From positions 1 through 50,967 of the forward strand of contig NYYU01000041.1 of assembly GCA_002685955.1 (NCBI GenBank): 50,967 nucleotides of DNA. Direction: 5' to 3'. The notes below the pieces were generated by a model, which saw only the letters and a program-made list of their open reading frames with translations, did not search any database and was not told the DNA's origin. This stretch comes from Parcubacteria group bacterium. Lineage in GTDB: Bacteria > Patescibacteriota > Minisyncoccia > Portnoybacterales > UBA2143. Below, piece by piece: positions 2,677-40,297 of the stretch. The first letter of the stretch is position 1. Each line of letters opens with the position of its first letter. A program made the translations under genes and the position numbers.

Positions 2677-2694
2677 ACCATAATACTAACTAAT

Positions 2695-2723: not shown

Positions 2724-2731
2724 TATAGATA

Positions 2732-4042: not shown

Positions 4043-4058
4043 GAGCGAAAACAACAAC

Positions 4059-8976: not shown

Positions 8977-9890
8977 ATTTTCATCAAATATGCGGTAAGT
9001 TTCTCTAATTCTTTTTGATCAGCAAATTCGATATTAATATAATTAGTATCACCTCTTTTAAGAATGCTTACTCGCCGACCCAAGACCTTTCCCAGGTCTT
9101 TTTCTATTTTCTTCAAAAACGGGTTTTTGGGTCCATGAGAATACGCCTTGTTTTCTATAGCTACCTTTCTGGCTCTTTCTTCGGCCTGACGGATACTCAA
9201 ATTGTTCTTAATAATTGCTCGAAAAAGAGCGTCTTGAGCAGACGGCCTTGCCATTAAGACAGCCCTACCATGCCCTTCACTGATTTTACCAACCATCATT
9301 GCTTTTTGTACTTTAGCTGGCAAAGTCAAAAGTCGTATCATATTAGTTATCGTCGTTCGGCTTTTGCCTACTTTTTGACCAATTTTTTTATGAGTCAATT
9401 TAAAATTATCTTGAAGCTGTTTAAAAGCTATAGCAGTTTCCATAGGATTAAGATTTTCTCGTTGAATATTTTCAACCAAAGCTAATTCTAATTTTTCATT
9501 AGCTGAACTATCTCGAATAATTACTGGTACATGCGGCAACCCAGCCATCCGAGAGGCTCGCCATCTTCTCTCGCCAGCCACTAATTCATATTCAACATCC
9601 TGGCCTCTTTCAGTTGATTTTTCAACCTTAGTAACAATTAATGGTTGAAGAATACCATGTTCTTTGATTGACTCAGATAATTCTTTTAATCCTTTGTCAG
9701 GCAAATCACGACGAGGCTGATCAGGGTTAGGTCTAATTTTATCAATCTCTATATTAAAAATACTTTCCTTTTTTGGTTTGCCCCAACTGGATGTTTGCGA
9801 TTGACGTTTTATCAAACTTTCTATTTTAGATTCCTTCTTAGGAATTAAAGATTGAAGCCCTTTACCTAAAGATGTTTTCATATTTTTCAT
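8973..9890 (-). CDS. parB: Chromosome partitioning protein ParB (Spo0J)
   Basis: 305 residues. ParB binds parS sites, spreads on DNA as a CTP-dependent clamp and stimulates ParA. After a basic linker the ParB nuclease-like domain reads IRPNPDQPRRDLPDKGLKEL, SIKEHGILQPLIV and YELVAGERRWRASRMAG (the GERRxRA motif for CTP binding). The helix-turn-helix region is KKIGQKVGKSRTTITNMIRL. The start overlaps parA by 4 nt (ATGA-type). The 3' end overlaps the convergent rel gene by 4 nt. No parS-like 16-mer was noticed in the window. Confidence 0.95.
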   Translation of the reverse strand: MKNMKTSLGKGLQSLIPKKESKIESLIKRQSQTSSWGKPKKESIFNIEIDKIRPNPDQPRRDLPDKGLKELSESIKEHGILQPLIVTKVEKSTERGQDVEYELVAGERRWRASRMAGLPHVPVIIRDSSANEKLELALVENIQRENLNPMETAIAFKQLQDNFKLTHKKIGQKVGKSRTTITNMIRLLTLPAKVQKAMMVGKISEGHGRAVLMARPSAQDALFRAIIKNNLSIRQAEERARKVAIENKAYSHGPKNPFLKKIEKDLGKVLGRRVSILKRGDTNYINIEFADQKELEKLTAYLMKI

Positions 9891-10651
9891 TTATCTAAAT
9901 TAATAATTTCTTGAGCTAATTGCCGATAAGCTCTAGCTCCTTTAGAACGAGGATTATATTGAATAATTGACTGACCAAAACTAGGCGCTTCAGCTAATTT
10001 AACACAACGAGGGATAATTGTTTCAAACACATAACCAGCAAAATTTCTCTCCATTTCCTTGCGCACTTGTCTGGAAAGTCGATTACGGCGATCATACATA
10101 GTTAATAAGGCGCCTTTAACCTTTAGAGGGCTACCTAGATTTTCTTTAACTAATTCAATAGTTTTTAAAAGTTGTCCTAAGCCTTCTAAAGCATAATACT
10201 CGCATTGAACTGGAATAATTACTTCATCGGCCGCTACCAAACCATTAATAGTCAAAAGGCCTAAACTAGGCGGGCAATCAATCAGGATATAGTCATAATT
10301 AGTTCTGACTTGACGAAGCAGTTCATACAATCTAAATTCCCTATTAGATACACTAACTAATTCTATAGTTGCCCCAGCTAAATCCGAAGCGGCTGGAATA
10401 ATATCACAACCAAAAAGACCAGTTTTACGAATTACTTCTTCAGGTAAAAGACCACCAATTAAAGAATGATAAAGATTCAAAGGAACTGCCTGAGGATCAA
10501 GGCCAATACCAGAAGTAGCGTTAGCTTGTGGGTCGATATCAACCAAAAGAACATACTTGCCCATAACAGCTAAGTAAGTTGATAAATTTATTCCTGTAGT
10601 TGTCTTGGAAACCCCTCCTTTTTGATTGACTAATCCAATTATTTGAGCCAT
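9887..10651 (-). CDS. parA: Chromosome partitioning ATPase ParA (Soj)
   Basis: 254 residues. ParA is a nucleoid-bound ATPase that moves ParB-parS complexes apart. The deviant Walker A is NQKGGVSKTTTGINL (the usual GVGKTT has Ser here), motif A' is VLLVDIDPQANAT and Walker B is YDYILIDCPPSLGLLT. The C-terminal part RCVKLAEAPSFGQSIIQY is typical of chromosomal Soj. It is the first gene of parAB and has a near-consensus promoter that shares its -35 region with the divergent tRNA-Leu. Confidence 0.96.
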   Translation of the reverse strand: MAQIIGLVNQKGGVSKTTTGINLSTYLAVMGKYVLLVDIDPQANATSGIGLDPQAVPLNLYHSLIGGLLPEEVIRKTGLFGCDIIPAASDLAGATIELVSVSNREFRLYELLRQVRTNYDYILIDCPPSLGLLTINGLVAADEVIIPVQCEYYALEGLGQLLKTIELVKENLGSPLKVKGALLTMYDRRNRLSRQVRKEMERNFAGYVFETIIPRCVKLAEAPSFGQSIIQYNPRSKGARAYRQLAQEIINLDK

Positions 10652-10659
10652 ATATCCTT

Positions 10660-10688
10660 ATTATACTCTAATTCCTTTTAATTGACAA
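10660..10688 (-). promoter_or_regulatory. parA promoter, overlapping a divergent tRNA promoter
   Basis: On the minus strand TTGTCA (10683-10688), 17 nt, TATAAT (10660-10665), then 8 nt to the parA ATG. These 8 nt read AAGGATAT, so either leaderless start or a very close Shine-Dalgarno is possible. The same bases on the plus strand give TTGACA (10682-10687), the likely -35 of the tRNA gene, whose -10 is weaker (AAAATA at 10706). Confidence 0.65.
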
Positions 10689-10718
10689 CAAAAGGGTTTT
10701 AAGAGAAAATAAGTATAG

Positions 10719-10805
10719 GCCGGTGTGGCGGAATTGGCAGACGCGTGCGATTCAAAATCGCATGGACTTTAGTCCTTGTGGGTTCGACTCCCACCACCGG
10801 CACCA
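10719..10805 (+). tRNA. tRNA-Leu (anticodon CAA)
   Basis: The acceptor arm GCCGGTG pairs with CACCGGC (10795-10801). The discriminator is A and the CCA is encoded (10803-10805). The anticodon stem TGCGA/TCGCA closes the loop TTCAAAA, giving anticodon CAA, which reads UUG. A long variable arm (GGAC/GTCC) and the T arm GTGGGTTCGACTCCCAC fit the class II structure of tRNA-Leu. It is divergent from parA. The convergent tsaC gene ends 3 nt beyond the CCA. Confidence 0.95.
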
Positions 10806-10807
10806 AA

Positions 10808-11455
10808 TCAACTCAATATCTTCATTAAATCCTTACCACTGACTGGACCAACTCTAAGAATTTTAGGCTGAGAACTAGTCAGATCTAATACAGTTGAAGG
10901 AGGACTGGCTGGTAAATCACCCGCATCCAAAATTAGGTCTGGTCGAGGATAAGCTTTTTCGAAATTTTTTATCACTTCCCTTGAAGAAATTAAAGGTGGC
11001 TGACCAGAAAGATTTGCTGAAGTTACTGTAATCGGTTCAACCAAGTTTTCCATCAAAGCTTGAGTAAACTGACAATCAGGAATTCTTAAACCGATTGTCC
11101 TTTGTTTAGCTGTTAAAACTTCTGGAATAATCCGTCTTTTTTCTAAAACTACCGTTACTGGCCCAGGCCAAACTTTTTTTAAAACCGCTTCTTGTTTTTT
11201 ATTAACAAAAGCAATTTGTTTAGCCATTTCAATATCACGAATCATTATTGGTACTGGTTTAGTAGCCGGCCTTTTTTTTATTTTAAAAAGACGCTCAATG
11301 CTATCAATTCGTAGAGCATCTACGCCTAATCCATAAACCGTATCAGTCGGATAAACAAAACTACCGCCTCGCTTGATTACGCCAACTGCTATTTCAATAA
11401 TATTCTGCTCAATATCATTCCATTGCCCAGACAAATTAAACCTGATAACTTCCAT
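10808..11455 (-). CDS. tsaC: L-threonylcarbamoyladenylate synthase (YrdC/Sua5 family)
   Basis: 215 residues. It makes threonylcarbamoyl-AMP from threonine, bicarbonate and ATP, the first step of the t6A37 modification of ANN-decoding tRNAs. Family blocks are GGSFVYPTDTVYGLGVDA, KIKKRPATKPVPIMI, WPGPVTVVLE, IGLRIPD, ITVTSANLSGQPP and STVLDLTSSQPKILRVG. The C-terminal Sua5 domain is absent, so this is the short YrdC form. tsaE, a later-step partner, lies at 44706-45170. It starts 3 nt after the leuS stop on the same strand. Confidence 0.93.
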   Translation of the reverse strand: MEVIRFNLSGQWNDIEQNIIEIAVGVIKRGGSFVYPTDTVYGLGVDALRIDSIERLFKIKKRPATKPVPIMIRDIEMAKQIAFVNKKQEAVLKKVWPGPVTVVLEKRRIIPEVLTAKQRTIGLRIPDCQFTQALMENLVEPITVTSANLSGQPPLISSREVIKNFEKAYPRPDLILDAGDLPASPPSTVLDLTSSQPKILRVGPVSGKDLMKILS

Positions 11456-11458
11456 ATT

Positions 11459-13861
11459 TTATACCACTAAATTAACCAAGCGATTAGGAATGTAGATAAT
11501 CTTTTTTGGTTTTTTGTTATTCAACCATTTCTGAACTTTTTCTTGAGCTAAGGCTAATTCTTTAACTTGTTTTTCAGAAATACCTTGTTTAACTTCTACT
11601 TTATCCCTGACCTTGCCATTAATCTGAATAATCAATTGCCAAATTTCTTGTTTGATTAGCTTTTTGTCGTATTCGGGCCATGGCTGCTTAAAAATACTTT
11701 GCTTATTGTCTAAACTGCTCCACAATTCCTCAGCTAAATGAGGCGCAAAAGGGGATAAAATAGATAGAAAAATCTGGGCGTCCTTTTTAGACAAAACTCT
11801 ATTATTCTCTGACCAGATATTAACAAACTCCATCATAGCAGCTATAGCAGTGTTAAACTTCATACTATCCAAATCCTCATCTACTTTCTTAACTACCTGA
11901 TGCAACTTAGTAATTAATCCCTTATCATTCTTTCCTGTTATCTTACTTTCATCATTAAACAAGGCTAAAACCTTGTTTAAGAATCTAAAACAACCATGAA
12001 CTCCCTCAGTACTCCAGGAAATCATCTGGTCAAACGGGCCCACAAACATTTCGTAAACTCTCAAAGTGTCAGCCCCGTACTGGTCTACAACATTTTTTGG
12101 TTTAATAACATTACCAAAACTCTTGCTCATCTTCCGACCATCTTCAGCTAAGACTACACCATGGGAATAGCGACGCTGGTAGGGTTCAATTGTGGGGACA
12201 TGACCTAAATCGTACAAAAACTTATGCCAGAATCTGGAATAGAGCAAATGGAGAGTTGTATGCTCCATACCGCCATTGTATAAATCTACAGGTAGCCAAT
12301 ACTCTAATTTTTCTGGAGCAGCAAACTTTTTATCATTTTTAGAATCAATATATCTTAAAAAATACCAAGAAGAACCAGCCCAATTAGGCATAGTATCTGT
12401 TTCTCTTTTAGCTGGACCGTTACATTCAGGACACTTAACATTAACCCATTCCTTAATATCTGCTAAAGGAGATTCGCCTGTGCCTGTTGGCTCATATTTC
12501 TTAACATAGGGAAGCTTAACTGGTAAATCCTTCTCTGGAACTGACCGAACGCCGCATTTCTGGCAATGAATAATCGGAATAGGTTCTCCCCAGTAATGCT
12601 GGCGAGAAAAAACCCAATCCCTTAATTTGTAATTAACTGTTTTTTTACCAACCTTGTTCTTGATTAACCAGACAGTAATTTTCTCAATGGCTGTTTTTGA
12701 ATCTAAACCGCTGAATTGTCCAGAATTAACCAAAGTACCATAATCAATATATGATTGTTTTGAAACATTACCGCCTGAGATAACTTCTCTAATTTCTAAA
12801 TCGTATTTCTCTGCAAACTGGTAATCTCTTTTATCATGGGCTGGTACAATCATTACTGCTCCACCGCCATAAGTAGCTACCACATAATCCGAAATCCAAA
12901 TGGGCACTTTTTCATTGTTAACTGGGTTAATACAGTAAGAACCACTAAATACTCCTGTTTTTTCTTTATCTAGCTGAGTTCTTTCAAATTCACTCTTCTT
13001 TTTAGAAGCGGCTACGTAAGCTTTAACCTTACTCTTATTCTCTTTAGTAATCAGTTTTTCTAATAGAGAATGCTCTGGAGCAATAACCATAGCGGTAATA
13101 CCAAAGGAAGTATCAGCCCGAGTGGTAAACACATTGATTACGTCTTCCGAGCCAACTACTTTAAAATCTATTTCAGTTCCATAGCTCCGGCCTATCCAAT
13201 TAATCTGCTGTCTCTTAATTTTTTCTACATAGTCAACTTTCTCCAAATCATCAATCAACCTATCCGCATAAGCTGTGATTTTTAACATCCATTGCTTTAA
13301 TGTTTTTCTACTGGTTTCTGCCCCACAACGCTCACATTTGCCGCCGATCACTTCTTCATTGGCTAAGCCGATTTTACAGCTCGGGCACCAATTAATGGGC
13401 ATCTTTGACTGGTAGGCCAAACCTTTCTTAAAAAACTGGATAAAAATCCATTGGGACCATTTGTAGTATTTAGGATCAGTTGAATCAATTTCCCTGCTCC
13501 AATCAAAGGAGAGGCCAATAGATTTCATCTGCTTCTTAAAGGTTGCGATATTATCCTTAGTTACTTTGGCCGGATGAATACCTGTTTTAATAGCATAATT
13601 CTCTGTAGGCAAACCAAAGGCATCCCAGCCCATGGGGAAAAGCACATTGAATCCTTCCATTCTTTTCTTACGGGCCAAAGCATCTAAAGAACAATAGCTG
13701 CGCAAATGACCCATATGTAAACCATCACCAGAAGGGTAAGGGAATTCTACCATTATGTATTTCTTCGGTCTTTTATCAAAGTCAACGGCTTTATACAAGT
13801 CTTGTTCTTGCCATTTCTTCTGCCACTTTTTTTCAATTTTACTAGGATTATATTTAGGCAT
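11459..13861 (-). CDS. leuS: Leucyl-tRNA synthetase
   Basis: 800 residues, class I synthetase charging tRNA-Leu. The HIGH region reads PYPSGDGLHMGHLRSY and the KMSKS region is EDGRKMSKSFGNV. The CP1 editing domain is present (TTRADTSFGITAMVIAPEH, GGGAVMIVPAHDKRDYQFA). A zinc-type Cys pattern occurs at CPSCKIG with CERCGAE, and a second at CQKCG with CPECNG. The C-terminal domain ends VQKWLNNKKPKKIIYIPNRLVNLVV as in bacterial LeuRS. The gene is followed by tsaC after 3 nt. A tRNA-Leu(CAA) gene lies just downstream of that pair. Confidence 0.97.
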   Translation of the reverse strand: MPKYNPSKIEKKWQKKWQEQDLYKAVDFDKRPKKYIMVEFPYPSGDGLHMGHLRSYCSLDALARKKRMEGFNVLFPMGWDAFGLPTENYAIKTGIHPAKVTKDNIATFKKQMKSIGLSFDWSREIDSTDPKYYKWSQWIFIQFFKKGLAYQSKMPINWCPSCKIGLANEEVIGGKCERCGAETSRKTLKQWMLKITAYADRLIDDLEKVDYVEKIKRQQINWIGRSYGTEIDFKVVGSEDVINVFTTRADTSFGITAMVIAPEHSLLEKLITKENKSKVKAYVAASKKKSEFERTQLDKEKTGVFSGSYCINPVNNEKVPIWISDYVVATYGGGAVMIVPAHDKRDYQFAEKYDLEIREVISGGNVSKQSYIDYGTLVNSGQFSGLDSKTAIEKITVWLIKNKVGKKTVNYKLRDWVFSRQHYWGEPIPIIHCQKCGVRSVPEKDLPVKLPYVKKYEPTGTGESPLADIKEWVNVKCPECNGPAKRETDTMPNWAGSSWYFLRYIDSKNDKKFAAPEKLEYWLPVDLYNGGMEHTTLHLLYSRFWHKFLYDLGHVPTIEPYQRRYSHGVVLAEDGRKMSKSFGNVIKPKNVVDQYGADTLRVYEMFVGPFDQMISWSTEGVHGCFRFLNKVLALFNDESKITGKNDKGLITKLHQVVKKVDEDLDSMKFNTAIAAMMEFVNIWSENNRVLSKKDAQIFLSILSPFAPHLAEELWSSLDNKQSIFKQPWPEYDKKLIKQEIWQLIIQINGKVRDKVEVKQGISEKQVKELALAQEKVQKWLNNKKPKKIIYIPNRLVNLVV

Positions 13862-13951
13862 ATATATTGAATATACCGAATATTGGTCATTTTTTCAAGC
13901 TTATTAAAAACAAAAAAGCGGCCTAGTTGCCACAATCACCTTGTAATGATT

Positions 13952-14212
13952 TTATTTATATAAATCTCTATGTCTGCCCAAAACAACAAAAATGCATTCC
14001 TCGGGATTAATGTATTTATAAATCGCCCTTAGATCGCCCGTAATATTGATACTCCGATAATCCAAATACTTTCCTTTAAGAGGGTGATTCTTTAAAACCG
14101 GAGTGAATGGATCTTTCAAAAATATTTTTAATCTTTCTTGAATTTTCTTCTTCTGTTTTTCCGTTAATTTCCGATACTGTTTTTTAAAATTTTTATGAAA
14201 GCGAATTAGCAT
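13952..14212 (-). CDS. RelE/YafQ-type toxin
   Basis: 86 residues, very basic, with the RelE/ParE superfamily layout: an N-terminal helix hairpin (FHKNFKKQYRKLTEKQKKKI), the strand region HPLKGKYLDYRSINITGDLRAIY, and a terminal strand CIFVVLGRHRDLYK. Toxins of this branch cut mRNA on the ribosome. The C-terminal His-Arg-x-x-x-Tyr resembles the catalytic end of YafQ/YoeB relatives. It overlaps the upstream antitoxin by 7 nt, the normal antitoxin-toxin order. It appears intact. Confidence 0.85.
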   Translation of the reverse strand: MLIRFHKNFKKQYRKLTEKQKKKIQERLKIFLKDPFTPVLKNHPLKGKYLDYRSINITGDLRAIYKYINPEECIFVVLGRHRDLYK

Positions 14213-14484
14213 AAGGAAGATAAATATTTCTTTAAATTCTTACTATCAGAAATAGAACGAGACAAATTTTTCCCTCGTTTAATATCCCCCTCAATTTTAC
14301 CCAAAATATCTTCTAATTCTTTAGACATATTGGGCGTAGAGCTAAAATAAACACTTTTATTCCTAATAAACTGCTTAAGATAGGCATTAATGACTGCGCT
14401 CAAAGATAAGCCTAAATCTTGAGCAATTTTTTTTGCCTTTATTTTAACTTCTTGATCCGCCTTGACATTAATTACTGTTTTCAT
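14206..14484 (-). CDS. RelB/DinJ-type antitoxin
   Basis: 92 residues. The N-terminus MKTVINVKADQEVKIKAKKIAQDLGLSLSAVINAYLKQF is a ribbon-helix-helix DNA-binding domain of the RelB/DinJ type. The charged C-terminus (LEDILGKIEGDIKRGKNLSRS) should wrap the toxin. The pair should repress its own promoter, and a 24-bp near-perfect palindrome overlaps the -10 region directly upstream of the ATG. The start codon lies 8 nt after the -10 box. Confidence 0.85.
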   Translation of the reverse strand: MKTVINVKADQEVKIKAKKIAQDLGLSLSAVINAYLKQFIRNKSVYFSSTPNMSKELEDILGKIEGDIKRGKNLSRSISDSKNLKKYLSSLC

Positions 14485-14485
14485 A

Positions 14486-14521
14486 TAACTATAGTGTATA
14501 CGATAGTTATTTTGATGTCAA
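14486..14521 (-). promoter_or_regulatory. Toxin-antitoxin promoter with palindromic operator
   Basis: On the minus strand TTGACA (14516-14521), 17 nt, TACACT (14493-14498), 8 nt, ATG at 14484. The -10 and part of the spacer are covered by a palindrome (14486-14509) with arms TAACTAT and ATAGTTA around GTGTATAC; 22 of 24 positions match the reverse complement. This is the expected operator for the RHH antitoxin. Confidence 0.75.
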
Positions 14522-14668
14522 GAAGTTTTATTTAAATAGCTAATTTTTTAATTCTAATATCTTAACCTTGAAGTTCTAAAAAATGAATGTTATGCTTTTA
14601 ATGATATAGAAGTTTTTTAACAAAATAGAGAATATATATACCAGAACAACAAACAAGGAGAATCTGTC

Positions 14669-14917
14669 ATGGATACTAAAACAAATGATGATATTATCAA
14701 TGATTTCATCAATGACCCAGAACTCACCGAAGAAGACATAAAAAAAATCAATGAAGGAGCCAAAGCCTATGAAGCAGAAATGGCCAAGATAAGACAGATT
14801 ACAAAGGATTTTATGAAACATTCAAGGGCCGAGGAAAAAAGAATGCAACAGTCAGATGAGGATTACAGACGGTACATGGACGCAGTATGGAAAAGACTGA
14901 AAGAAATAAAGAGTTAA
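14669..14917 (+). CDS. Small acidic helical protein, unknown
   Basis: 82 residues, highly charged and predicted helical (ELTEEDIKKINEGAKAYEAEM, QQSDEDYRRYMDAVWKRL). No family recognised. It has a good Shine-Dalgarno (AAGGAG about 8 nt before the ATG), unusual among genes here, many of which look leaderless. The opposite-strand frame 14576-14821 is a shadow. It lies in the accessory patch between a toxin-antitoxin pair and a broken Fic gene and may be a mobile passenger. Confidence 0.6.
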   Translation: MDTKTNDDIINDFINDPELTEEDIKKINEGAKAYEAEMAKIRQITKDFMKHSRAEEKRMQQSDEDYRRYMDAVWKRLKEIKS

Positions 14918-30947: not shown

Positions 30948-32837
30948 ATGGCAAATAAATTTGAACAACCAAATCAAGAAACAAAAGAAGAACCTTTAAT
31001 TAAGGTTGTTAGTCCTGTAGGGGCTGAAGGGAGGAAAATAAGTGAAAAAACAATAGATAATGCCCAGAGGACAATTGATGAATTAAAATTTGAAAAAGAT
31101 ATAAAGAAAAAACAAAAAGAAGGAGTTTTACTCTCTAAAGAAGAAACAGCTAAATTAAGAGAATTAGAAAAAGAAGCAGAAAAACATGAGGATTTAGAAA
31201 AAAAGAAAGAATTAATTTTAGACGATGTTAGAAAAGAGTATGCTAAAATAGATTTAAACGCAGAAAAATACATTAAAGAAAATAAAGGAAAACTTAAGAA
31301 TGACTTTGAAGGCTATGAAGAAGCGAAATCAGCTTATTTAGAAGCATTGAAAAATCAACGGGTGAAAATGTATGAAAAAGCACTTAAAGAAGTGAAAGGA
31401 TTATCTCTTCCAGAATCAAAGAAAGAAGAAAAAAATAAAAAAATGAAAGAAAAAATGGAAGAGATTGTTAAAGAGACGATTATCAAAGAAGCCAATAAAT
31501 TGTATGATCAAAAAATGGATTTGAAATTAGAAGCTAAGGGAGAATTAGGAAAATTAGAAAAAATAAAGAATTTTACTGGCAAGATAGTTGAAAAATATAG
31601 GAGAATGCCTTTATATAAAAAGCTTTTAATTTCTGGTGGGTTAATAGCTGGCGGAATAGCAGCTGGCGCTGCTGGAGGAGCTACTGCAGCTGCTTTAGCT
31701 ACTGGGATGGTAACTGGTAGGTGGGCTCAAAGAGCTTTAGGTGGTGCAGCTACAGCAGTTGGCTTAGAAGCGTTAATTAAAAGGAGTCAAGAGAAAAAAG
31801 AAGGTAAAGAAGTATTAGCTGAGTTGGCCAATGAGTTACAAAAAAGCATTAAAGATAATGATAAAAAATTAGATAAAAAATTATTTGAATTAGAAGGAAG
31901 TAAGAAAGGACAAAAAACCCGACGATATATTATAGCTGGCGCAGCAGGAACATTAGTTGGTTCTGGCTTAGTTGGTAAAGCATTAAACGGTGTAGTTGGA
32001 GGTATTTGGGGTGGTGAAGGAGCAGAAAAAGTAACTGAAAAAGTAGTTGAACAAGTGCAAACAGAAGGATTTACTGAAACAGCTGGAAAAGGTGATTCAG
32101 TATGGAAAATGGCAGAAGATCAATTAGAAAAATATTATGGAGGAAAGTTTTCTGGATTAGATAAAGCCACTCAAACTCATCTTATTGACGCAGTCAAAGA
32201 TAAAGTTGCTGAAAATTCTGAAAAATTTGGTTTAGAAGATGTTGATAAATTAAAAGTTGGTCAGAAAGTTGATTTTTCAAGTATTTTTGAAGATTCAGCG
32301 CAAATGGATGAAATGTCGAAAGAAGCAAGCAGTTTAGTAGATAGCGAAAAAACAAATATTTTAAATAATAATAATAAGATTGAAGAATGGATGAGTGAAC
32401 ATCCTAAAGAAGAATTAACTTCTGAAAAAGTTGATGAGATTTTATCAGGAAAAACAGAAATTTCAGATACAGAAGTTGACGTAGCTGCAGAAGAAAGAAT
32501 TGCTTCTGAAATGAGCAACCAAGCAAATATTGAAATACAAATAGATGAAGCTGAAAATAAATTAGTTGAATCACTTGGATTTACTCCAGATGAATATAGT
32601 GCTATTGAATCTGTAAAAGTAGATTATTTATTAGAGCAATTACCTTCAAAATTTGAGGCATGGGAAATGTGGCATAATACGCCAACAAATATAGATTTGC
32701 CTCATGATGGAATTTATGGTTTTGGCGAATTTGGCCGACATATTGAATTAGCAGAATATATTCGTTCTCTTAATCCTAATGAAGGCGCAAAACAAATGAC
32801 AATTAGTCAATTTATGAGAGTTGCAGCTAGTAAATAA
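30948..32837 (+). CDS. Coiled-coil membrane protein with LysM-like domain, lineage-specific
   Basis: 629 residues. The first ~210 are charged coiled coil (KQKEGVLLSKEETAKLRELE and similar). Two Gly/Ala-rich membrane segments follow: ISGGLIAGGIAAGAAGGATA (about 226-250, a glycine-zipper look) and YIIAGAAGTLVGSGLVGKAL (about 328-350). After these GKGDSVWKMAEDQLEKYYGG to DKLKVGQKVDFS resembles a LysM-like peptidoglycan-binding module. The C-terminus is acidic and ends with a well-ordered segment (WHNTPTNIDLPHDGIYGFGE). First gene of a plus-strand operon with the TraG-like ATPase. An envelope-spanning or scaffold role is inference. Confidence 0.7.
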   Translation: MANKFEQPNQETKEEPLIKVVSPVGAEGRKISEKTIDNAQRTIDELKFEKDIKKKQKEGVLLSKEETAKLRELEKEAEKHEDLEKKKELILDDVRKEYAKIDLNAEKYIKENKGKLKNDFEGYEEAKSAYLEALKNQRVKMYEKALKEVKGLSLPESKKEEKNKKMKEKMEEIVKETIIKEANKLYDQKMDLKLEAKGELGKLEKIKNFTGKIVEKYRRMPLYKKLLISGGLIAGGIAAGAAGGATAAALATGMVTGRWAQRALGGAATAVGLEALIKRSQEKKEGKEVLAELANELQKSIKDNDKKLDKKLFELEGSKKGQKTRRYIIAGAAGTLVGSGLVGKALNGVVGGIWGGEGAEKVTEKVVEQVQTEGFTETAGKGDSVWKMAEDQLEKYYGGKFSGLDKATQTHLIDAVKDKVAENSEKFGLEDVDKLKVGQKVDFSSIFEDSAQMDEMSKEASSLVDSEKTNILNNNNKIEEWMSEHPKEELTSEKVDEILSGKTEISDTEVDVAAEERIASEMSNQANIEIQIDEAENKLVESLGFTPDEYSAIESVKVDYLLEQLPSKFEAWEMWHNTPTNIDLPHDGIYGFGEFGRHIELAEYIRSLNPNEGAKQMTISQFMRVAASK

Positions 32838-32881
32838 ATAATTTAATATTAATAATTAATAAAAAAATAACTAAAACAATT

Positions 32882-33202
32882 ATGAACAAGAAAAATATTC
32901 AACAAAACATTATTAAAGAACTTGGTTTAGAAGGTTTGCCAGAAGATAAACAAATAGAACTTTTAACTACCATGACTGAGTCAGTTTTAAAAAGAATAAC
33001 TATTAAAGTATTAGAACTATTATCTGAAGAAGATAAAAAAGAATTTGATCAAGTTCGAGAAACAAATGATCCAGATAAAATTAGTGAATTTTTAAAAGAT
33101 AAAATTAATAATTACGATGAAATAGTTGAAGACGTAATTAAAGAATTTAAGGAAGAGATGAAAAGCACAATGGCAAGTTTAGAAGAAGGTTTAGAAAAAT
33201 AA
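32882..33202 (+). CDS. Small helical protein of a Patescibacteria-type family (DUF5663-like)
   Basis: 106 residues, all-helical and acidic. Start NIQQNIIKELGLEGLPEDKQ, then ELLTTMTESVLKRITIKVLE, then LSEEDKKEFDQVRETNDPDK. The pattern [LI]GL..LP.[ED][KR]Q..LL..M...V..R[IV]...VL..LSE.[ED] is one I associate with DUF5663 proteins of candidate phyla, from memory only. Third-party function unknown. Second gene of the operon; spacing of 44 nt to the previous gene and 6 nt to the next. Confidence 0.6.
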   Translation: MNKKNIQQNIIKELGLEGLPEDKQIELLTTMTESVLKRITIKVLELLSEEDKKEFDQVRETNDPDKISEFLKDKINNYDEIVEDVIKEFKEEMKSTMASLEEGLEK

Positions 33203-33208
33203 TTTTTT

Positions 33209-33685
33209 ATGTCTGAAATAAGAGATAAATATCAGGAGCCACTTGAAGGCGATCCATCTGCTTTCAGCGAAAAAGTTGAATTAAAAAAGGAGGATTTTTC
33301 AAAAAAACCTTCTTTGCCAGATGAATCTGTTTCAAAAGAACAGGAAGTTTTAGAATTAGAAAAAAAATTGGCAGAGAAAAAGATGGAGTTAAATAAAGAA
33401 GTTGTGTCTAAAAAAAATGAAGAATCAGAGCCAGAAAAAGAAACTACCCCAAGACCAAATATACCGCCAGGCAAGGTTCAACAACGAGTTAAACAATTAA
33501 AAGATACCAGTAAAGAAAATCAAGTTAAAGCGCTTTGTGATCTAGCCTTTCAAAAGGGCCTTGATTTTGCTGTTGAAACAGCTAAAAATCTAGATAATGC
33601 TTATGTTTTAGATGAATTCCACGATACTCTAGTTGATGAATTGCGTGAAAAGCTAATTCAAAAAGGAGAGTTAAAAAAACTATAA
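33209..33685 (+). CDS. Acidic protein with helical C-terminal domain, unknown
   Basis: 158 residues. Residues 1-95 are low-complexity and charged, likely disordered or coiled coil (EVLELEKKLAEKKMELNKEV). The C-terminal half is compact and helical: KVQQRVKQLKDTSKENQVKA, LCDLAFQKGLDFAVETAKNL, NAYVLDEFHDTLVDELREKL. No family recognised. It ends 4 nt before the ATPase start, and its end carries the ATPase Shine-Dalgarno (AAAAGGAG). It is likely an accessory or adaptor of the ATPase (inference from position). Confidence 0.6.
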   Translation: MSEIRDKYQEPLEGDPSAFSEKVELKKEDFSKKPSLPDESVSKEQEVLELEKKLAEKKMELNKEVVSKKNEESEPEKETTPRPNIPPGKVQQRVKQLKDTSKENQVKALCDLAFQKGLDFAVETAKNLDNAYVLDEFHDTLVDELREKLIQKGELKKL

Positions 33686-33689
33686 TTTC

Positions 33690-36182
33690 GTGAGTATCAA
33701 TCAAATATTTTTATCTACAATTTCTCTCCTGATTCTGTCTATTATCATTATAGGCAGTCTCCTTTTTGTCCATCGCCTTAAAAACAAAGGGCAAACAAGA
33801 CGGGCTTTAAATATGAGCCTGTTTTTAATTACTCTGCCTAAAAAAACTAAAAATCAAGAACAATCGCCCAAGAACGAAAAAGAAATCATTTCAGTTATGG
33901 AACAGGTCTACAGTAGTTTAAGTAATATTCAGGCCAAGGAAAATACCTTTATTTACGGCCAGCCTCATTTAGTTTTTGAAATAGCTACCCCACAAATTGG
34001 TGAAGAAATTGCCTTTTATCTGGCCGTACCTAAAAATTACGAAGAAATTGTTGAAAAACAGATTCATGGGTTTTATCCTGAAGCTTCCATTGAACCAACT
34101 GAAGATTATAATATTTTCAATCCTCAAGGTGGAGTAGCTGGTAGTTATTTAAAATTAACTAAAAGCTATATTCTTCCTTTTAAAACATACCAACATTTAG
34201 AAACTGACCCACTTAACGAAATCACTAATACTTTAAGTAAATTAGAAGAAGATGGCGAAGGAGGAGCAGTTCAAATTATCTTCAGACCTACTAAAGTAAG
34301 GTGGCAAGCCCTAAGCCGAGGAATTGCCCAAGAAATGCAAAAAGGAAAAAGTTTTTCTCAAGCGAAATCAGCCAAAGGCAGTAATGAATTAGTTAAATTA
34401 ATTAAAGGATTTCAAGAAGATGTTAAATCTCCTAAAAAAGAAAAAACAACAGAAGAAGAAAAACCAACTATTACTTCTGGCCAAGAAGAAATTATCAAAG
34501 CCTTAGAAGGAAAATCAGCTAAAAAGGGCTTTGATGTAAATATCAAGTTATTGGTTTCAGCTAAAGACAAAGACAGGGCTGAGGAATTACTAAATCATCT
34601 AGAAGCAGCTTTTGTTCAATTTGAAGCGCCTGATCTAAATCAATTAAAACCAATCAAACTCAAAAATAGATCTTTAAAAAAACTAATCTATAATTTTTCT
34701 TTTCGGCTTTTTAATAAAAAACAAACAATGCTTTTAAATACTGAAGAATTAACTAGCGTTTTTCATTTTCCTACGGCTAGTACTGAAACGCCTAAAGTTA
34801 AATTCCTTAAATCAGAACAAGCGGCTCCACCTGCTAATATGCCTAAGCAAGGTCTCATTTTAGGAAAAAATGATTATCGTGGTGTAGAAACAGTTATTCG
34901 TATGCAAGAAGATGACAGGCGTCGTCATTTATATGTTATTGGACAAACTGGAGTAGGTAAATCTAATTTCTTAAAAAATATAATTCTTCAGGATATTAAA
35001 GAAGGCAAAGGAGTTTGCTTTATAGACCCTCATGGAAGTGATTTAGAATCAGTTATGGGTCAAATACCTAAGGAAAGAGCTGAAGATGTTATTTTAATAG
35101 ATCCAGCTGATATGGAAAGACCTTTAGGTTTAAACATGGTGGATTATAATGCAAAGTATCCAGAACAAAAAACTTTTGTTGTTAATGAATTAATGAGTAT
35201 TTTTGAAAAATTATACGATATGAAAGCATCAGGTGGGCCGGTATTTGAACAATATACCCGTAACGCTCTTTTATTACTAATGGATGATCCAAGCGAGAAA
35301 TTTACATTAATGGAAGTTCCTAAAGTTATGTCTGATAAAGAATTTCGTACTCGTTTGTTAGTAAAATGTAAGAATATAGTGGTTAAGGATTTTTGGGAAA
35401 AAGAAGCAGAAAAAACAGGTGGTGAATCTTCTTTACAAAATATGGTTCCATATATTACCTCTAAATTTAATGTATTTATTGCTAATGACTATATGAGACC
35501 AATAATAGGGCAATCAGAAAGTTCTATTGATTTTAGACAACTTATGGATGAACAAAAGATTCTTTTGGTTAATTTAAGTAAAGGCCGATTGGGAGATATT
35601 AATAGTCATTTATTAGGTTTAATTATTGTAGGTAAGTTATTAATGGCTGCTTTTTCAAGAGTTGATATTCCTGAGGAAGAGCGCAAGGATTTTTATCTAT
35701 ATATGGATGAGTTTCAAAACTTTTCAACTGATAGTATTGCTACAATTCTTTCTGAAGCAAGGAAGTATAAGCTTTGTTTAACTATGGCGCATCAATTTAT
35801 TGGACAATTGCCTGAAGAAATTAGTAAAGCTGTTTTTGGCAATGTTGGCTCAATGGTTGCCTTTAGAATTGGCGCTGAAGATGCAGAGTTTTTAGTCAAA
35901 CAATTTGAACCAATCTTTGACACTAATGATTTAATTAATATTGATAACTTTAATGCATATGTTAAACTAATGATTAACAACGAAACTTCTGAACCGTTTA
36001 ATCTTTCGGTCTATCCGCCAGCCAAAGATAATCCAGAAATCGCCCAAAAAATCAAAGAGCTTTCCAAAATTAAATATGGCAAGGATAAAAACGTAGTCGA
36101 AAAAGAAATTACTAATCGCTGGCAAGACACAGCTGTCACCGAAAGCCAGCCTCCATCAAACTCAGATATGGAAATTAGATAA
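33690..36182 (+). CDS. TraG/HerA-type (type IV secretion-like) ATPase, membrane-anchored
   Basis: 830 residues, GTG start. One N-terminal membrane helix (about residues 5-27, IFLSTISLLILSIIIIGSLL) precedes a ~340-residue domain. The RecA-like motor has Walker A HLYVIGQTGVGKSNFLKNI, FIDPHGSD, NPxDx-type VILIDPADMERPLGLNM, Walker B FYLYMDEFQNFSTDS and arginine-finger-side block EARKYKLCLTMAHQFIGQLP. This is the DUF87/TraG_D/VirB4-like class that pumps DNA or protein across membranes. No relaxase, VirB or pilin genes accompany it; its neighbours are lineage-specific hypotheticals. So it is either part of an undescribed envelope system or acts in DNA translocation. Confidence 0.85.
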   Translation: MSINQIFLSTISLLILSIIIIGSLLFVHRLKNKGQTRRALNMSLFLITLPKKTKNQEQSPKNEKEIISVMEQVYSSLSNIQAKENTFIYGQPHLVFEIATPQIGEEIAFYLAVPKNYEEIVEKQIHGFYPEASIEPTEDYNIFNPQGGVAGSYLKLTKSYILPFKTYQHLETDPLNEITNTLSKLEEDGEGGAVQIIFRPTKVRWQALSRGIAQEMQKGKSFSQAKSAKGSNELVKLIKGFQEDVKSPKKEKTTEEEKPTITSGQEEIIKALEGKSAKKGFDVNIKLLVSAKDKDRAEELLNHLEAAFVQFEAPDLNQLKPIKLKNRSLKKLIYNFSFRLFNKKQTMLLNTEELTSVFHFPTASTETPKVKFLKSEQAAPPANMPKQGLILGKNDYRGVETVIRMQEDDRRRHLYVIGQTGVGKSNFLKNIILQDIKEGKGVCFIDPHGSDLESVMGQIPKERAEDVILIDPADMERPLGLNMVDYNAKYPEQKTFVVNELMSIFEKLYDMKASGGPVFEQYTRNALLLLMDDPSEKFTLMEVPKVMSDKEFRTRLLVKCKNIVVKDFWEKEAEKTGGESSLQNMVPYITSKFNVFIANDYMRPIIGQSESSIDFRQLMDEQKILLVNLSKGRLGDINSHLLGLIIVGKLLMAAFSRVDIPEEERKDFYLYMDEFQNFSTDSIATILSEARKYKLCLTMAHQFIGQLPEEISKAVFGNVGSMVAFRIGAEDAEFLVKQFEPIFDTNDLINIDNFNAYVKLMINNETSEPFNLSVYPPAKDNPEIAQKIKELSKIKYGKDKNVVEKEITNRWQDTAVTESQPPSNSDMEIR

Positions 36183-36205
36183 TCATTTTATAAGAATATA
36201 AAACT

Positions 36206-36799
36206 ATGAATAAATTAGAAATGGGTATTGAAAATATTCCTCAGGAATTAAATCAGGATAATTCTGAAAAACCAAACATTGAACAAGAGACAGAATCTGA
36301 TTTGGATGGAATGGCCGATCAAGAAAAAAGTATCTTAGAAAAATTTAGAGGCAAGGCTAAAAAAGTAGCTCTTGTTATGACTGTGGCCACCTCTCTGGCT
36401 GTTATAGGCTGCAAAGCGGAAAAAGCCCAAGACAATGTTTCTGGAAAAAATCAAGAGAGCGCGACGCATGAAGTCCAGGAATTAACCGAAGGAGAAAAAA
36501 ATGCGTTGGATCTAGTCAATGGGCTGAAACAAATACCCGAAAAATTACAAGAAGCTATAAAACAAGGAAAAGTAGAATCAGTTGGTCCTGCCCAAGATAA
36601 TGCTAGAGAGAGACAAGCCACTATGGATAGCATCCAAGCTTACTTTGACTCAGCAAAGAATAAAAGGGCTGCAATTGAAAACCTGGAATCAGCCTTGGGA
36701 AGCTTAGGTTTAGGCTCGCTTGATAAAGATGTTCAAAGAGGCTTGCTTAAAAAATTCGTTAATTACAAAAAAGCGCTTGACCGAACGGAAAAAAAATAA
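36206..36799 (+). CDS. Membrane-anchored protein, cassette gene A (copy 1)
   Basis: 197 residues. An acidic N-terminal tail (about 50 residues) ends with QEKSILEKFRGKAKKVALVM and one hydrophobic segment with a lipobox-like end, SLAVIGCKAEK. The rest should be outside the membrane and is helical (TEGEKNALDLVNGLKQIPEK ...). The tail-plus-helix module is shared with the protein at 37425-38045 (QEKGFIEGLRGKSKLVAKTM), while the outer parts differ. The gene is followed after 10 nt by cassette gene B. Function unknown; the layout of common anchor and variable outer part is notable. Confidence 0.65.
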   Translation: MNKLEMGIENIPQELNQDNSEKPNIEQETESDLDGMADQEKSILEKFRGKAKKVALVMTVATSLAVIGCKAEKAQDNVSGKNQESATHEVQELTEGEKNALDLVNGLKQIPEKLQEAIKQGKVESVGPAQDNARERQATMDSIQAYFDSAKNKRAAIENLESALGSLGLGSLDKDVQRGLLKKFVNYKKALDRTEKK

Positions 36800-36809
36800 A
36801 TTAATTAAT

Positions 36810-37076
36810 ATGAATAGTCTTGAAAAACTTAAACAAATATTAGAAGGTTCAAAGCTGTCGAGCCGAGACCAAAAAGCGCTTGTTGATCTTTTCTCGTCAG
36901 CAAAAGACGAAGAGCTGGAACCTGTGATTAAATTATTTTCTGAAAATCCGGAATGGATTGAAAAAATCAGCCATAACCACAAAATAAAACAAGAAGCATT
37001 GAAAAAGAGTGATGCAAATTTATGGCAGAAAATTATTCAAGAAGAAGAATCTCAACTCAGAGAATTAGAAAAATAA
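36810..37076 (+). CDS. Small helical protein, cassette gene B (copy 1)
   Basis: 88 residues from ATG 36810 (MNSLEKLKQILEGSKLSSRD); the track start is 90 nt upstream inside gene A and less likely. Further blocks are QKALVDLFSSAKDEELEPVI, KLFSENPEWIEKISHNHKIK and a terminal helix IIQEEESQLRELEK. It aligns along its whole length with the minus-strand 37148-37420 product. No known family. It ends 24 nt before the palindromic terminator shared with the convergent copy. Confidence 0.65.
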   Translation: MNSLEKLKQILEGSKLSSRDQKALVDLFSSAKDEELEPVIKLFSENPEWIEKISHNHKIKQEALKKSDANLWQKIIQEEESQLRELEK

Positions 37077-37100
37077 CCCAAAACCAATGGCATAATTAAA

Positions 37101-37151
37101 ACCGTCTGCCTGAGGCAGACGGTCTTGTCTTTATTAATCCCTAAAAATCAG
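37101..37151. repeat. 51-bp direct repeat, copy 1, with bidirectional terminator
   Basis: ACCGTCTGCC-TGA-GGCAGACGGT (37101-37123) is a perfect 10-bp hairpin with T-rich flanks on both sides, between two convergent genes. The adjoining TTGTCTTTATTAATCCCTAA and onward to TCAG is repeated at 38903-38932. The last bases include the stop codon of the minus-strand gene B. Confidence 0.85.
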
Positions 37152-37420
37152 ATAGATTTATCAATTTCATCTAAAAATTCTTTTTCTTCTTTTAATATCT
37201 CGCTAAAATCAGCCTGTTTATTCCCCATAAAAATATTTTGTTTTTTCTTATAATTATTATAAACCCATGTTACCCATTTTTTATCTTCTTTGAACAATTC
37301 AAGAATTATAGAAAGATTATTCATAGGAGAATATCCAATAATATTATAAAGCTCATCCTGTTCTTGTTGTTTAAGATTAGATGATGATATTAATTTCCTT
37401 ATTTGTAATAATGTCTCCAT
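37148..37420 (-). CDS. Small helical protein, cassette gene B (copy 2)
   Basis: 90 residues: METLLQIRKLISSSNLKQQE, QDELYNIIGYSPMNNLSIIL, ELFKEDKKWVTWVYNNYKKK, ending LKEEKEFLDEIDKSI. Aligns with the 36810 product (SKLSSRDQKAL/SNLKQQEQDEL, FSENPEWIEKISHNHKIKQ/FKEDKKWVTWVYNNYKKKQ, IIQEEESQLRELEK/ILKEEKEFLDEIDK). The two are old paralogs. It starts 4 nt after its gene A partner, as in copy 1. Confidence 0.65.
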   Translation of the reverse strand: METLLQIRKLISSSNLKQQEQDELYNIIGYSPMNNLSIILELFKEDKKWVTWVYNNYKKKQNIFMGNKQADFSEILKEEKEFLDEIDKSI

Positions 37421-37424
37421 GATA

Positions 37425-38045
37425 TTAAAAATCTGACGGTTTCATATATTCGTTCCCTTTTGTTATGGTCACTGAAGGATCTTGCTTTTTATTTTTATCC
37501 TCTATCTCATCATCTTCCACGCTATCTACAGGCGATCTTTTAATTTTACGCGCTTTTTCAACGCTTTCTCTCTCATCATCAGTTAATAAATCTAAAGGCA
37601 CATTATGTTCATTAATATGAGTTGGCACGAATCCTTCTAATTTAATTGAAGGATTATTGGAATCAAAATCAATTCCCATTTTTCCAGCAAGCTCTGATGC
37701 CCTTTTAATCCATCTTTCTCTTTCTTCTTGCTTTTGTTTCTTTTTCTTTAACACTTGTTCTATTCGCCTTTGCATACGCTCATCACCAGAATATTTATTC
37801 TGGTCAGCACCTTTTTGCTTCTCACTTATGGTATGTCTTTTTATCTCATCACCTGCTTCTGCTTTAGATAAACTAACAGTACCAGCAAGTAAAGTGCACA
37901 AGACCATTGTTTTAGCTACTAATTTTGACTTACCGCGCAATCCCTCTATAAATCCTTTTTCTTGAATTGCAAGCTTATCCAAATCAATATGTGGTTCTTT
38001 CTCGTTAGTATTATTAATATTTTCTGGAAACTTTTCTAAATTCAT
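37425..38045 (-). CDS. Membrane-anchored protein, cassette gene A (copy 2)
   Basis: 206 residues. Short acidic tail, then IDLDKLAIQEKGFIEGLRGK, the hydrophobic segment VAKTMVLCTLLAGTVSLSKA and a charged outer part with KKKKQKQEERERWIKRASEL. The first 70 residues match the anchor of the 36206 product; the rest does not. The segment ends SLSKAEAGDE, so signal peptidase cleavage after AEA is possible. It has a clean promoter with leaderless spacing and forms a unit with gene B at 37148. Confidence 0.65.
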   Translation of the reverse strand: MNLEKFPENINNTNEKEPHIDLDKLAIQEKGFIEGLRGKSKLVAKTMVLCTLLAGTVSLSKAEAGDEIKRHTISEKQKGADQNKYSGDERMQRRIEQVLKKKKQKQEERERWIKRASELAGKMGIDFDSNNPSIKLEGFVPTHINEHNVPLDLLTDDERESVEKARKIKRSPVDSVEDDEIEDKNKKQDPSVTITKGNEYMKPSDF

Positions 38046-38182: not shown

Positions 38183-38848
38183 ATGAAACCAACATATTTT
38201 CAATTTAATTGTAAAGAAATTGATAAATTAGACTTACATCAAGCCAATGCAGTTTTGAAACATAAACCAGATATAATAGTTCTTGAATATCCGAACAATA
38301 ATAAAACACCCGATCTACCATTTAATCAGTACTCACCTTTAAAAAAACCGAAGGGTATGATAAAAAGTCGTCTTAAAAAATTCCCAGATAAAGTTTTGAA
38401 AATTCATCCATGGGTTAAAGCAGATACTATAATGTGGAAGAATATTGCAAGTCTTTGGAAGAAAAATCATCAAATTTTAATTTACCCGGTAGATGCTCCA
38501 AGTGAGCTGACAAAAGAATGGATAGAAGTATGGAATCACACTTATCCCTGCGTAAAGAAAAACTGGGCTTGGTGGGTAAAAATATATTTACGCGAAAAGA
38601 TTATGGCTAAAAATATTCAATGGATACTAGATAATTATAAAAAAAAGAAAAAACCTAAAGTTTTGATATTTTTACAAAGTTTCCACTGGAATCATGTAAA
38701 ATTTCTTCTAGATAATCCGACTAAAAATGAAATCTGGAAATATTATTTTGGAAACTTTCCCGAAATAGATAAACAAAATATCAGAGGCAAAATAAGAAAT
38801 CTAAATAATACATTCTACAAATATTGGAATAAAATATCAGACTTCTAG
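38183..38848 (+). CDS. Unknown protein, distantly TraB/GumN-like
   Basis: 221 residues. Blocks: ANAVLKHKPDIIVLEYPNNN, HQILIYPVDAPSELTKEWIE, WWVKIYLREKIMAKNIQWIL and KPKVLIFLQSFHWNHVKFLL. The order 'KPDIIVLEYP ... RExxMAxxI ... KVLxFxxxxHxxHVxxLL' recalls the TraB/PrgY/GumN (Tiki-like) fold, where an Arg-x-x-x-Met helix and a late His form the active site. The resemblance is weak and the usual GxxH becomes SFHW. It is rich in Lys and Trp. It lies inside the segment bounded by the 51-bp direct repeats and is probably accessory. Confidence 0.45.
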   Translation: MKPTYFQFNCKEIDKLDLHQANAVLKHKPDIIVLEYPNNNKTPDLPFNQYSPLKKPKGMIKSRLKKFPDKVLKIHPWVKADTIMWKNIASLWKKNHQILIYPVDAPSELTKEWIEVWNHTYPCVKKNWAWWVKIYLREKIMAKNIQWILDNYKKKKKPKVLIFLQSFHWNHVKFLLDNPTKNEIWKYYFGNFPEIDKQNIRGKIRNLNNTFYKYWNKISDF

Positions 38849-38945: not shown

Positions 38946-39359
38946 ATGAAGCAATATAAAACTAAAGTTAGGATACTGACTGGCAAAAACTATCCTGATT
39001 TATATAAAAAGGCCTTTAGTCTTTATCGACAGATTAAACGAAAGACAAAACGTAAACCATACATAAGGTCATTCTATTTTAGAAAAGATAAAATATTCTT
39101 GGATTTATTCTGGCAACATCTTCATCAGAAAAACTGGCGGGATAGAAAAAGACGCATACGATATTATCCTTGCGCCATAGAGCTTATCAGATATTCGCGC
39201 CTTGACCCAGCATCAACAGATAATCCTAATAATCCATCAGAAATTTTGCATAAATTTAGCGGCATTGCGCCTGATGGAAGTGTTTTTTATGTTCAAATTA
39301 AAGAGAACAAACGGAATAACCAAAAATATTTAATGTCCGTATTCCCAGAGCAAAAATAA
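38946..39359 (+). CDS. Probable RelE/barnase-fold nuclease-like protein (PBECR-like)
   Basis: 137 residues, very basic. Blocks: YIRSFYFRKDKIFLDLFWQH, KNWRDRKRRIRYYPCAIELI, SRLDPASTDNPNNPSEILHK and FSGIAPDGSVFYVQIKENKR ending YLMSVFPEQK. The C-terminal beta-strand series 'EILHKFxGxxxDGxxFxVQIKExKxxxxKxLMSVFP' resembles PBECR/barnase-EndoU-RelE-like nuclease domains found in phage and mobile elements. I assign this from memory with limited certainty. No antitoxin is adjacent. It follows the second 51-bp repeat by 13 nt. Confidence 0.5.
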   Translation: MKQYKTKVRILTGKNYPDLYKKAFSLYRQIKRKTKRKPYIRSFYFRKDKIFLDLFWQHLHQKNWRDRKRRIRYYPCAIELIRYSRLDPASTDNPNNPSEILHKFSGIAPDGSVFYVQIKENKRNNQKYLMSVFPEQK

Positions 39360-39491: not shown

Positions 39492-39941
39492 ATGCCTACA
39501 CTAGCCACTAATCGCCAAGCTAGATTTAATTACAAAATTCTGGAAACCTATGAAGCCGGCATAGTTTTAGCCGGCCATGAAGTTAAATCAGTTAAAAATG
39601 GCCATATTAGCTTAAAAGGTTCCTATGTTACTATTAAAAACCAAGAAGCTTGGCTAGTTAATGCCCAAATCTCTCCTTATCAACCCAAAAATATGCCTAA
39701 GGATTATGAACCAACTAATTCTAGAAAATTACTCCTTCATAAAGATGAAATCAAGGCTTTAGTTGGGAAAACCAAACAAAAAGGCTTGACTTTAGTGCCT
39801 TTGCGGGTCTATACTAAGCACAGTATTGTTAAGCTAGAATTTGGCTTAGGCCAAGGCAAAAGAAAAACAGATAAACGAGAAACAATTAAAAAAAGAGAAG
39901 CTGAGAAAAGAATTGGCCGAGCTTTAAGACAAAGGGGATGA
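39492..39941 (+). CDS. smpB: SsrA-binding protein SmpB
   Basis: 149 residues. SmpB binds tmRNA and brings it to stalled ribosomes. Blocks: TNRQARFNYKILETYEAGIV, LAGHEVKSVKNGHISLKGSY, NAQISPYQP, RKLLLHKDEIKALVGKTKQK and LVPLRVYTKHSIVKLEFGLG. The C-terminal tail RETIKKREAEKRIGRALRQRG is complete. The stop codon (39939-39941) lies within the first 8 nt of the tmRNA gene, so mRNA and tmRNA ends overlap. Confidence 0.97.
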   Translation: MPTLATNRQARFNYKILETYEAGIVLAGHEVKSVKNGHISLKGSYVTIKNQEAWLVNAQISPYQPKNMPKDYEPTNSRKLLLHKDEIKALVGKTKQKGLTLVPLRVYTKHSIVKLEFGLGQGKRKTDKRETIKKREAEKRIGRALRQRG

Positions 39942-40275
39942 CAGGTATCGATGAGAGTTCATTTTTTGATAAGCAAGTCGAGCTTAAAATCTCGTAAAAC
40001 TTTTAAACCTAACAACTGCTAAACCTAATTTAGCTTTTGCTACTGCTTAAGTTCGGTAGCCATCCAATCTCTTGATTTCTGATAGGGAGTCTCGGGTGTC
40101 AATTTTTCAGAATAGGCAATTAAATTATCTCGCTTTTTTGCCAAAACTTTAGAGATAAGGGTTAAGAATTTTTTGCTTGATTTTTCAGTTCTTAATTCCT
40201 CAAATTAAATCGAGCTAAGCTTGTAGAATTGTTAAACAATGACTTTTAGACGGGGGTTCGATCCCCCCATCTCCA
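39934..40275 (+). ncRNA. ssrA: Transfer-messenger RNA (tmRNA)
   Basis: The 5' end GGGGATGACAGGTATCGATG and 3' end GACGGGGGTTCGATCCCCCC with CATCTCC-A form the tRNA-like domain: acceptor GGGGATG/CATCTCC and a T arm with GTTCGAT. The genome continues CTAA, so CCA is not encoded and must be added. The tag frame probably starts at GCT 40018 and ends TAA 40048-40050, coding AKPNLAFATA. The tag ends in Ala like other tags but not in the common ALAA. The 342-nt length is normal. It begins inside the smpB stop region and is followed after 22 nt by the infC start. Confidence 0.95.
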
Positions 40276-40297
40276 CTAATAAAATAAAAGGAAATCT

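Follow-up and report, generated by a model that had tools for sequence, protein, structure and literature searches.

The window analysed here is a 50,967-nucleotide stretch of DNA from a Parcubacteria group bacterium (assembly GCA_002685955.1, contig NYYU01000041.1), in which positions 30948-37076 hold a run of six genes, A to F, that includes a membrane-anchored ATPase, D. We conclude with high confidence that D is a motor of the type IV coupling family and that the product of the gene before it, C, is one of its subunits. The points directly supported are homology, fold, domain order, the fusion of C to D, the linkage of B, a locus free of relaxase genes and a relationship to the coupling ATPases found in conjugative elements. 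With D homologues phylum-wide and C and B linked to D in many genomes, the association lies far beyond chance. The block is a real conserved module, and looks more like the motor-plus-adaptor part of a secretion machine than a complete one. A sequence-only reading of the same DNA had proposed that the set may be an undescribed secretion, DNA-transfer or host-contact machine; the motor with its partner proteins stands, and a complete new machine is not supported. The features that carry the argument are as follows, with the evidence for each in brackets.

30948..32837, + strand: A, charged coiled-coil protein of 629 amino acids (aa) (open reading frame (ORF); hydropathy and motif; aligned homologues from 5 related loci)
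32882..33202, + strand: B, DUF5663 (PF18908) helical protein, 106 aa (Pfam; linkage in relatives)
33209..33685, + strand: C, predicted adaptor protein, 158 aa (adjacency to, or fusion with, D homologues)
about 33443-33682, + strand: conserved helical domain of C, its last 80 residues
33690..36182, + strand: D, coupling-type ATPase, 830 aa, GTG start (ORF, Pfam, alignment, model, fold searches)
33690..33785, + strand: N-terminal membrane helix of D, residues 1-32 (hydropathy; model helix 3-40)
33801..34847, + strand: predicted VirB4-type N-terminal domain of D, residues 38-386 (separate AlphaFold2 model, Foldseek, VIA)
34941..34964, + strand: Walker A motif of D, GQTGVGKS, residues 418-425 (invariant residues, 38 sequences)
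35706..35711, + strand: Walker B acidic pair of D, D673-E674 (invariant, 38 sequences)

Analysis of the D sequence revealed matches above the Pfam cut-offs for the type IV secretion system (T4SS) family T4SS-DNA_transf (30.7 against 20.1 bits), for TrwB_AAD_bind (26.2 against 20.5 bits) and for DUF87, the HerA family (28.9 against 23.2 bits). Pfam listed no D match to CagE_TrbE_VirB or AAA_10 at E values up to 1, whereas both profiles hit a true VirB4 from a relative. Across 38 aligned homologues, the Walker A residues G418, Q419, T420, G421, G423 and K424 and the Walker B pair are invariant. Hydropathy indicated a single strong transmembrane (TM) segment in D, and the basic residues that follow this helix suggest, by the positive-inside rule, that the rest of the protein is cytoplasmic. 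The earlier proposal of a conjugation-class motor, anchored in the membrane and encoded with partner proteins, is borne out.

An AlphaFold2 model of D, built from the 38 homologues, reached a predicted local distance difference test (pLDDT) value of 86.8, and its top Foldseek matches were full-length TrwK/VirB4 proteins (E 1.4e-14). Superposition of the ATPase core with VIA-align gave Z 29.5 for Thermoanaerobacter VirB4 (4ag5; 336 aligned residues, 2.9 Å), Z 28.6 for TrwB (1e9s; 371 aligned, 3.8 Å) and Z 24.8 for HerA (4d2i; 318 aligned, 3.8 Å). The region of about 340 residues ahead of the core, modelled separately (pLDDT 89), matched the N-domain of TrwK/VirB4 (Foldseek E 7e-8; VIA Z 16.6, 267 aligned, 4.7 Å), with ESX-3, the next-best family, reaching only Z 9.9. 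By these models the region, which the earlier reading had marked for a remote-homology search, is a VirB4-type N-domain and not a domain without relatives. Despite this N-domain, the ATPase of D is VirD4-like by sequence profiles.

All 55 relatives searched have a D homologue (G036 with a weak match only), as do 377 of 379 near-complete Patescibacteria genomes; best matches in the latter run from close full-length ones to weaker ones, and some of them may belong to a class other than that of the window copy. The term lineage-specific, applied to the block earlier, therefore does not fit D: its homologues are near-universal in Patescibacteria, and VirD4 homologues have already been counted there, at about two per genome and rarely near virB4 (PMC12102498). 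The window copy belongs to what we call class A. In another chromosomal class, which we call class B, N-domain and ATPase are encoded by two neighbouring genes placed between secD-secF and, at several loci, alaS; the genome under study holds a single copy of this class, where its contig C28 ends. Class B genes (L072, L075, L087 and others) lie 3' of secD-secF and of an RNA-polymerase-sigma-like gene, often 5' of alaS, and the class B ATPase bears a C-terminal treble-clef zinc finger. At a single locus, L060 (G052:C1:8000-23000, positions 6031-13492), the ATPase of class B stands in tandem with a motor of class A, and a few genes 5' of them a T4SS_pilin domain is encoded within a protein of 666 aa.

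C lies immediately 5' of the motor at 28 of 38 loci of the window copy's class and in 26 of 80 named genomes, giving 54/118, a count in which some genomes are present in both sets. In 28 further loci the C domain lies within the motor reading frame, N-terminal to the VirB4-type domain, where an un-iterated C profile detects it (E 1e-17 to 5e-6). Every C match in the loci examined is inside or adjoining a motor, except at L037, where it stands several genes off in the same block. The gene fusion argues strongly that C is a subunit of D. In loci of the ABY1 type (Uhrbacteria, Falkowbacteria, Komeilibacteria), a different small protein occupies the C position; directly 5' of the motor (e.g. L115, L117, L118, L123), it has a conserved IPGVNKFFLEQEAKIK end and appears by eye unrelated to C.

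B matches DUF5663 (E 1.4e-7, 32.5 bits against a cut-off of 23.7), a family present at 22 places in 21 of the 55 relatives. Sixteen of these places lie within about 4 kb of a class A motor, the chance expectation for genome sizes of 0.5-1.2 Mb being well under one. The sequence of A is recognisable in six class A loci, other loci having large proteins similarly placed. Hydropathy reveals glycine-rich hydrophobic segments in A at residues 226-250 and 328-346, and a LysM-like motif, GDSVWKMA, lies at residue 382. The motif noticed in the earlier reading is thus present and recurs in several homologues, but no Pfam LysM match reaches E 1, so that a LysM domain in A is unproven. Conservation of gene order across Patescibacteria, which that reading had suggested checking, extends to C-D (adjacent or fused in most loci outside the ABY1 type) and to B-D, partly to A and not to E-F; the conserved core is C-D, then B, then A. 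Two observations concern relatives of the block. In three relatives of the same family (L034, L033, L036), the motor is followed 3' by genes for a membrane protein of 120-130 aa and a ClpB-like AAA protein of 850 aa, with N-terminal membrane segments. A patescibacterial B-C-D block also occurs in L097 (contig DYDB01000003.1), labelled Micavibrio sp., which is probably mislabelled or mis-binned.

Full-length homologues of D, N-domain included, occur in Bacillus and Shouchella plasmids and in phage SPO1, and the D N-domain profile alone matches these plasmid and phage proteins (E 3e-25 to 3e-16). A recent chimera of a VirB4 N-domain and a VirD4 ATPase was considered as the origin of D and rejected, because the plasmid and phage homologues have the identical two-part architecture. 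In the plasmids, the DUF87 protein is encoded directly 5' of a Replic_Relax gene with conjugation genes nearby; TcpE and/or VirB4-type genes are also borne, the B. subtilis plasmid having TcpE and a VirB4-type AAA_10 ATPase. In SPO1, the motor homologue gp27.4 is directly followed by gp27.3, a Replic_Relax protein. In work on mobilizable elements of streptococci, Replic_Relax (PF13814) is taken to be a relaxase of the MOBC type (PMC5357655), and elements with Replic_Relax encode a VirD4-type coupling protein (PMC12479173). Among the 14 patescibacterial Replic_Relax loci read, nine have the gene adjoining a motor homologue or one gene off. One locus, L249 (G340:C53:1-16000, positions 2268-14892), is a complete conjugative element in a patescibacterium, with genes for a serine recombinase, the motor, Replic_Relax, a T4SS pilin, a TrbL/pilin fusion, PrgI, a TrsD-like protein and VirB4. 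The ATPase-domain tree unites class A (65 sequences), class B (27 sequences; support 0.98) and four motors borne by elements in a single clade, supported at 1.0. The chromosomal motors are thus kin to the coupling ATPases of conjugation, fixed in the chromosome with loss of the relaxase.

Two alternatives involve mobile elements. The block could be the functionless remnant of a conjugation island stripped of relaxase and channel. Element-borne relatives carry precisely the missing genes, and Replic_Relax was not found in the genome under study. The earlier reading's observation that relaxase, channel and pilin genes are absent from the A-F block was confirmed; relaxase and T4SS genes are likewise absent near the chromosomal motor copies read and present only beside element-borne relatives. 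The missing T4SS genes, which by that reading's own check would have pointed to a decayed block had they stood beside the motor in close relatives, were not found there; they do stand beside its sister copies in conjugative elements. Against decay stand the near-universal motor, the invariance of all catalytic residues, the retention or fusion of C across many genera and the monophyly of the chromosomal class, and conservation has largely refuted this explanation already; we regard it as very improbable. The other alternative makes the chromosomal motor a coupling protein for relaxase-only mobilizable elements. Such elements are thought elsewhere to borrow the machinery of other elements (PMC12479173), and four loci (L244, L246, L247, L250) have Replic_Relax without an adjacent motor. 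Replic_Relax occurs, however, in just 39 of the 379 genomes, against a motor in nearly all, so that a helper role cannot explain why the motor is retained, and we consider this role unlikely.

Our favoured reading, to which we give about an even chance as a whole, is that of a domesticated coupling ATPase with dedicated adaptors that serves the T4SS of its own genome in trans. D would be a type IV coupling ATPase fixed in the chromosome, probably a hexameric ring on the cytoplasmic side of the cell membrane, to which its N-terminal helix anchors it. C would be its dedicated adaptor subunit, and B, perhaps with A, could join the same complex in this lineage. The complex would select a cargo, DNA or protein, and use ATP to pump it, the most likely destination being the T4SS that another locus of the genome encodes; it would take the place of the coupling protein that, in conjugative elements, is fed by a relaxase.

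Use of the motor by a T4SS is likely. Close relatives (L184, L185, L187) have a T4SS cluster near rnpA-yidC with pilin, PrgI-like, TrsD-like and VirB4 genes. In the genome under study the corresponding locus is on contig C37, which holds rnpA-yidC, a pilin-like gene (26.4 bits, slightly below the cut-off of 26.6) and one more gene before it ends. VirB4 searches of this genome were empty because the T4SS locus is cut at the end of C37, which points to an assembly gap and not to absence. A cultured patescibacterium, the sole one tested genetically, cannot grow on its host without its T4SS, yet this system has been reported without a recognizable coupling protein or relaxase (PMC10633639).

Several results weigh against the favoured reading. 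In 31 single-contig genomes, the median distance between VirB4 and the 64 motor copies is 174 kb. Two copies alone are closer than 20 kb, and both adjoin a second VirB4; the copy that comes next lies 26 kb away. Fourteen near-complete genomes have a motor and no detected VirB4, one of them, G075, being a single contig. The coupling-protein homologue of the genetically tested patescibacterium is reported to be non-essential (PMC12102498). The C-motor fusions checked retain no strong membrane helix at the junction, so that membrane anchoring is not obligatory, and the support for the class A clade is only moderate (0.71). Co-occurrence is uninformative on this question, since both motor and VirB4 (364 of 379 genomes) are near saturation. 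When 12 of the 14 VirB4-less genomes were rechecked with a second VirB4 query, it matched only its own source genome, G058; this query is distant for most of the genomes, and the absence of VirB4 is therefore firm only for G075, a congener of G058. G075 (818,817 bases) has kept its motor homologues and may be a natural case of T4SS loss. With VirB4-less genomes and a reportedly non-essential homologue where the T4SS is essential, T4SS use is likely but not settled.

Some of these results favour a T4SS-independent translocase, in which D and C would act at the membrane as a pump for double-stranded DNA, comparable to HerA, FtsK or the Ced importer of archaea, and serve DNA uptake, segregation or repair. 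Besides the 14 genomes and the dispensable homologue, this possibility is favoured by the fold match to HerA, by weak CedD and CedB profile matches (24.9 against a cut-off of 600 and 16 against 700) and by the position of the motor near the clamp-loader gene dnaX at many loci of two classes. Nearness to dnaX may be synteny alone; the N-domain is of the VirB4 type, the nearest non-chromosomal relatives stand beside a relaxase and VirB4, and the block showed no recognisable nuclease, NurA-like, ComEC or recombination gene. D has no HAS-barrel profile match, and no NurA gene was recognised nearby, though no search specific to NurA was made. We hold this explanation as a tentative one, of perhaps one chance in three. 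That D and C, here with B and A, form a phylum-wide relaxase-free coupling complex, assembled from parts of conjugation systems and retained by nearly all Patescibacteria, that acts as a self-standing DNA or protein translocator without a VirB4-based T4SS seems to us doubtful.

The layout of the block is that of a single co-directional run on the + strand in the ORF listing, with intergenic gaps from A to F of 44, 6, 4, 23 and 10 bp; argS is divergent from A at its start, and a perfect 10-bp hairpin closes it 3' of F. Five hairpins were observed in the region, against a chance expectation of 3.8, the closing one having the longest stem. Promoter-like sites were no commoner in a scan of the region than in shuffled sequence. 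Pfam assigns no accepted family to A, C, E or F, and A has no match at E<0.1. The remaining features lie at the 3' end of the block and beyond.

36206..36799, + strand: E, 197 aa, hydrophobic segment 51-72, lipobox-like VIGC (ORF, phmmer, hydropathy)
36810..37076, + strand: F, small helical protein, 88 aa (ORF; paralogue of G), begun in the ORF listing at an upstream TTG, 36720
37101..37123, + strand: hairpin between F and G, terminator-like, with a perfect stem of 10 bp
37148..37420, - strand: G, diverged inverted copy of F, 90 aa, outside the operon (phmmer)
37425..38045, - strand: H, diverged inverted copy of E, 206 aa, outside the operon (phmmer)

E resembles H (phmmer E 4e-7, 30% identity) and F resembles G (E 5e-7, 24% identity); E-F and H-G are diverged inverted copies of a two-gene cassette at 36206-38045, meeting at the perfect hairpin. 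The cassette, which the earlier reading called A-B and whose genes are present, encodes a lipoprotein-like or membrane protein and a helical protein of 90 aa. Among all loci fetched, the sole homologues of E and F are their own paralogues H and G; E-F is local and is not shared by relatives. Further on, two ORFs of 221 and 137 aa with no family match above cut-off (38183-38848 and 38946-39359, both +) lie between the cassettes and a transfer-messenger RNA gene at 39934-40276.

A near-universal chromosomal motor with a dedicated adaptor, in some loci fused to it, is the obvious candidate for the missing substrate receptor of the patescibacterial T4SS, or else for a separate translocator, and the block supplies named proteins, a fold and a source family, the Replic_Relax conjugative elements. 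Among known systems, the HerA helicase shares with D the DUF87 profile and the hexameric motor fold; D differs in the type of its N-domain. VirD4-type coupling proteins (TrwB, TraG, DotL) share the ATPase core, the Pfam profiles, a membrane tether and a helical insertion between the Walker motifs, and Dot/Icm likewise combines a coupling ATPase with adaptor subunits. Unlike VirD4-type proteins, D adds a VirB4-type N-domain of about 340 residues, has one TM helix and a partner, C, fused or separate, and its locus is without a nearby relaxase or T4SS gene. VirB4 ATPases (TrwK, TpVirB4) show the same two-part architecture, with the N-domain fold and ATPase core matched as above, whereas D has its own TM helix and no above-cut-off CagE_TrbE_VirB or AAA_10 match, and in relatives whose T4SS locus is complete, that locus has an ordinary VirB4 gene of its own. 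The DUF87 ATPase of the Bacillus plasmids and SPO1 (gp27.4-gp27.3) is homologous over the full length, N-domain included, but at about 25% identity; its partner is a relaxase where those of D are C and B, and it is mobile where D is chromosomal. The motor family is known; within the literature searched, three points appear new, namely the assignment of the N-domain fold, the fusion of C to D and the connection with Replic_Relax elements.

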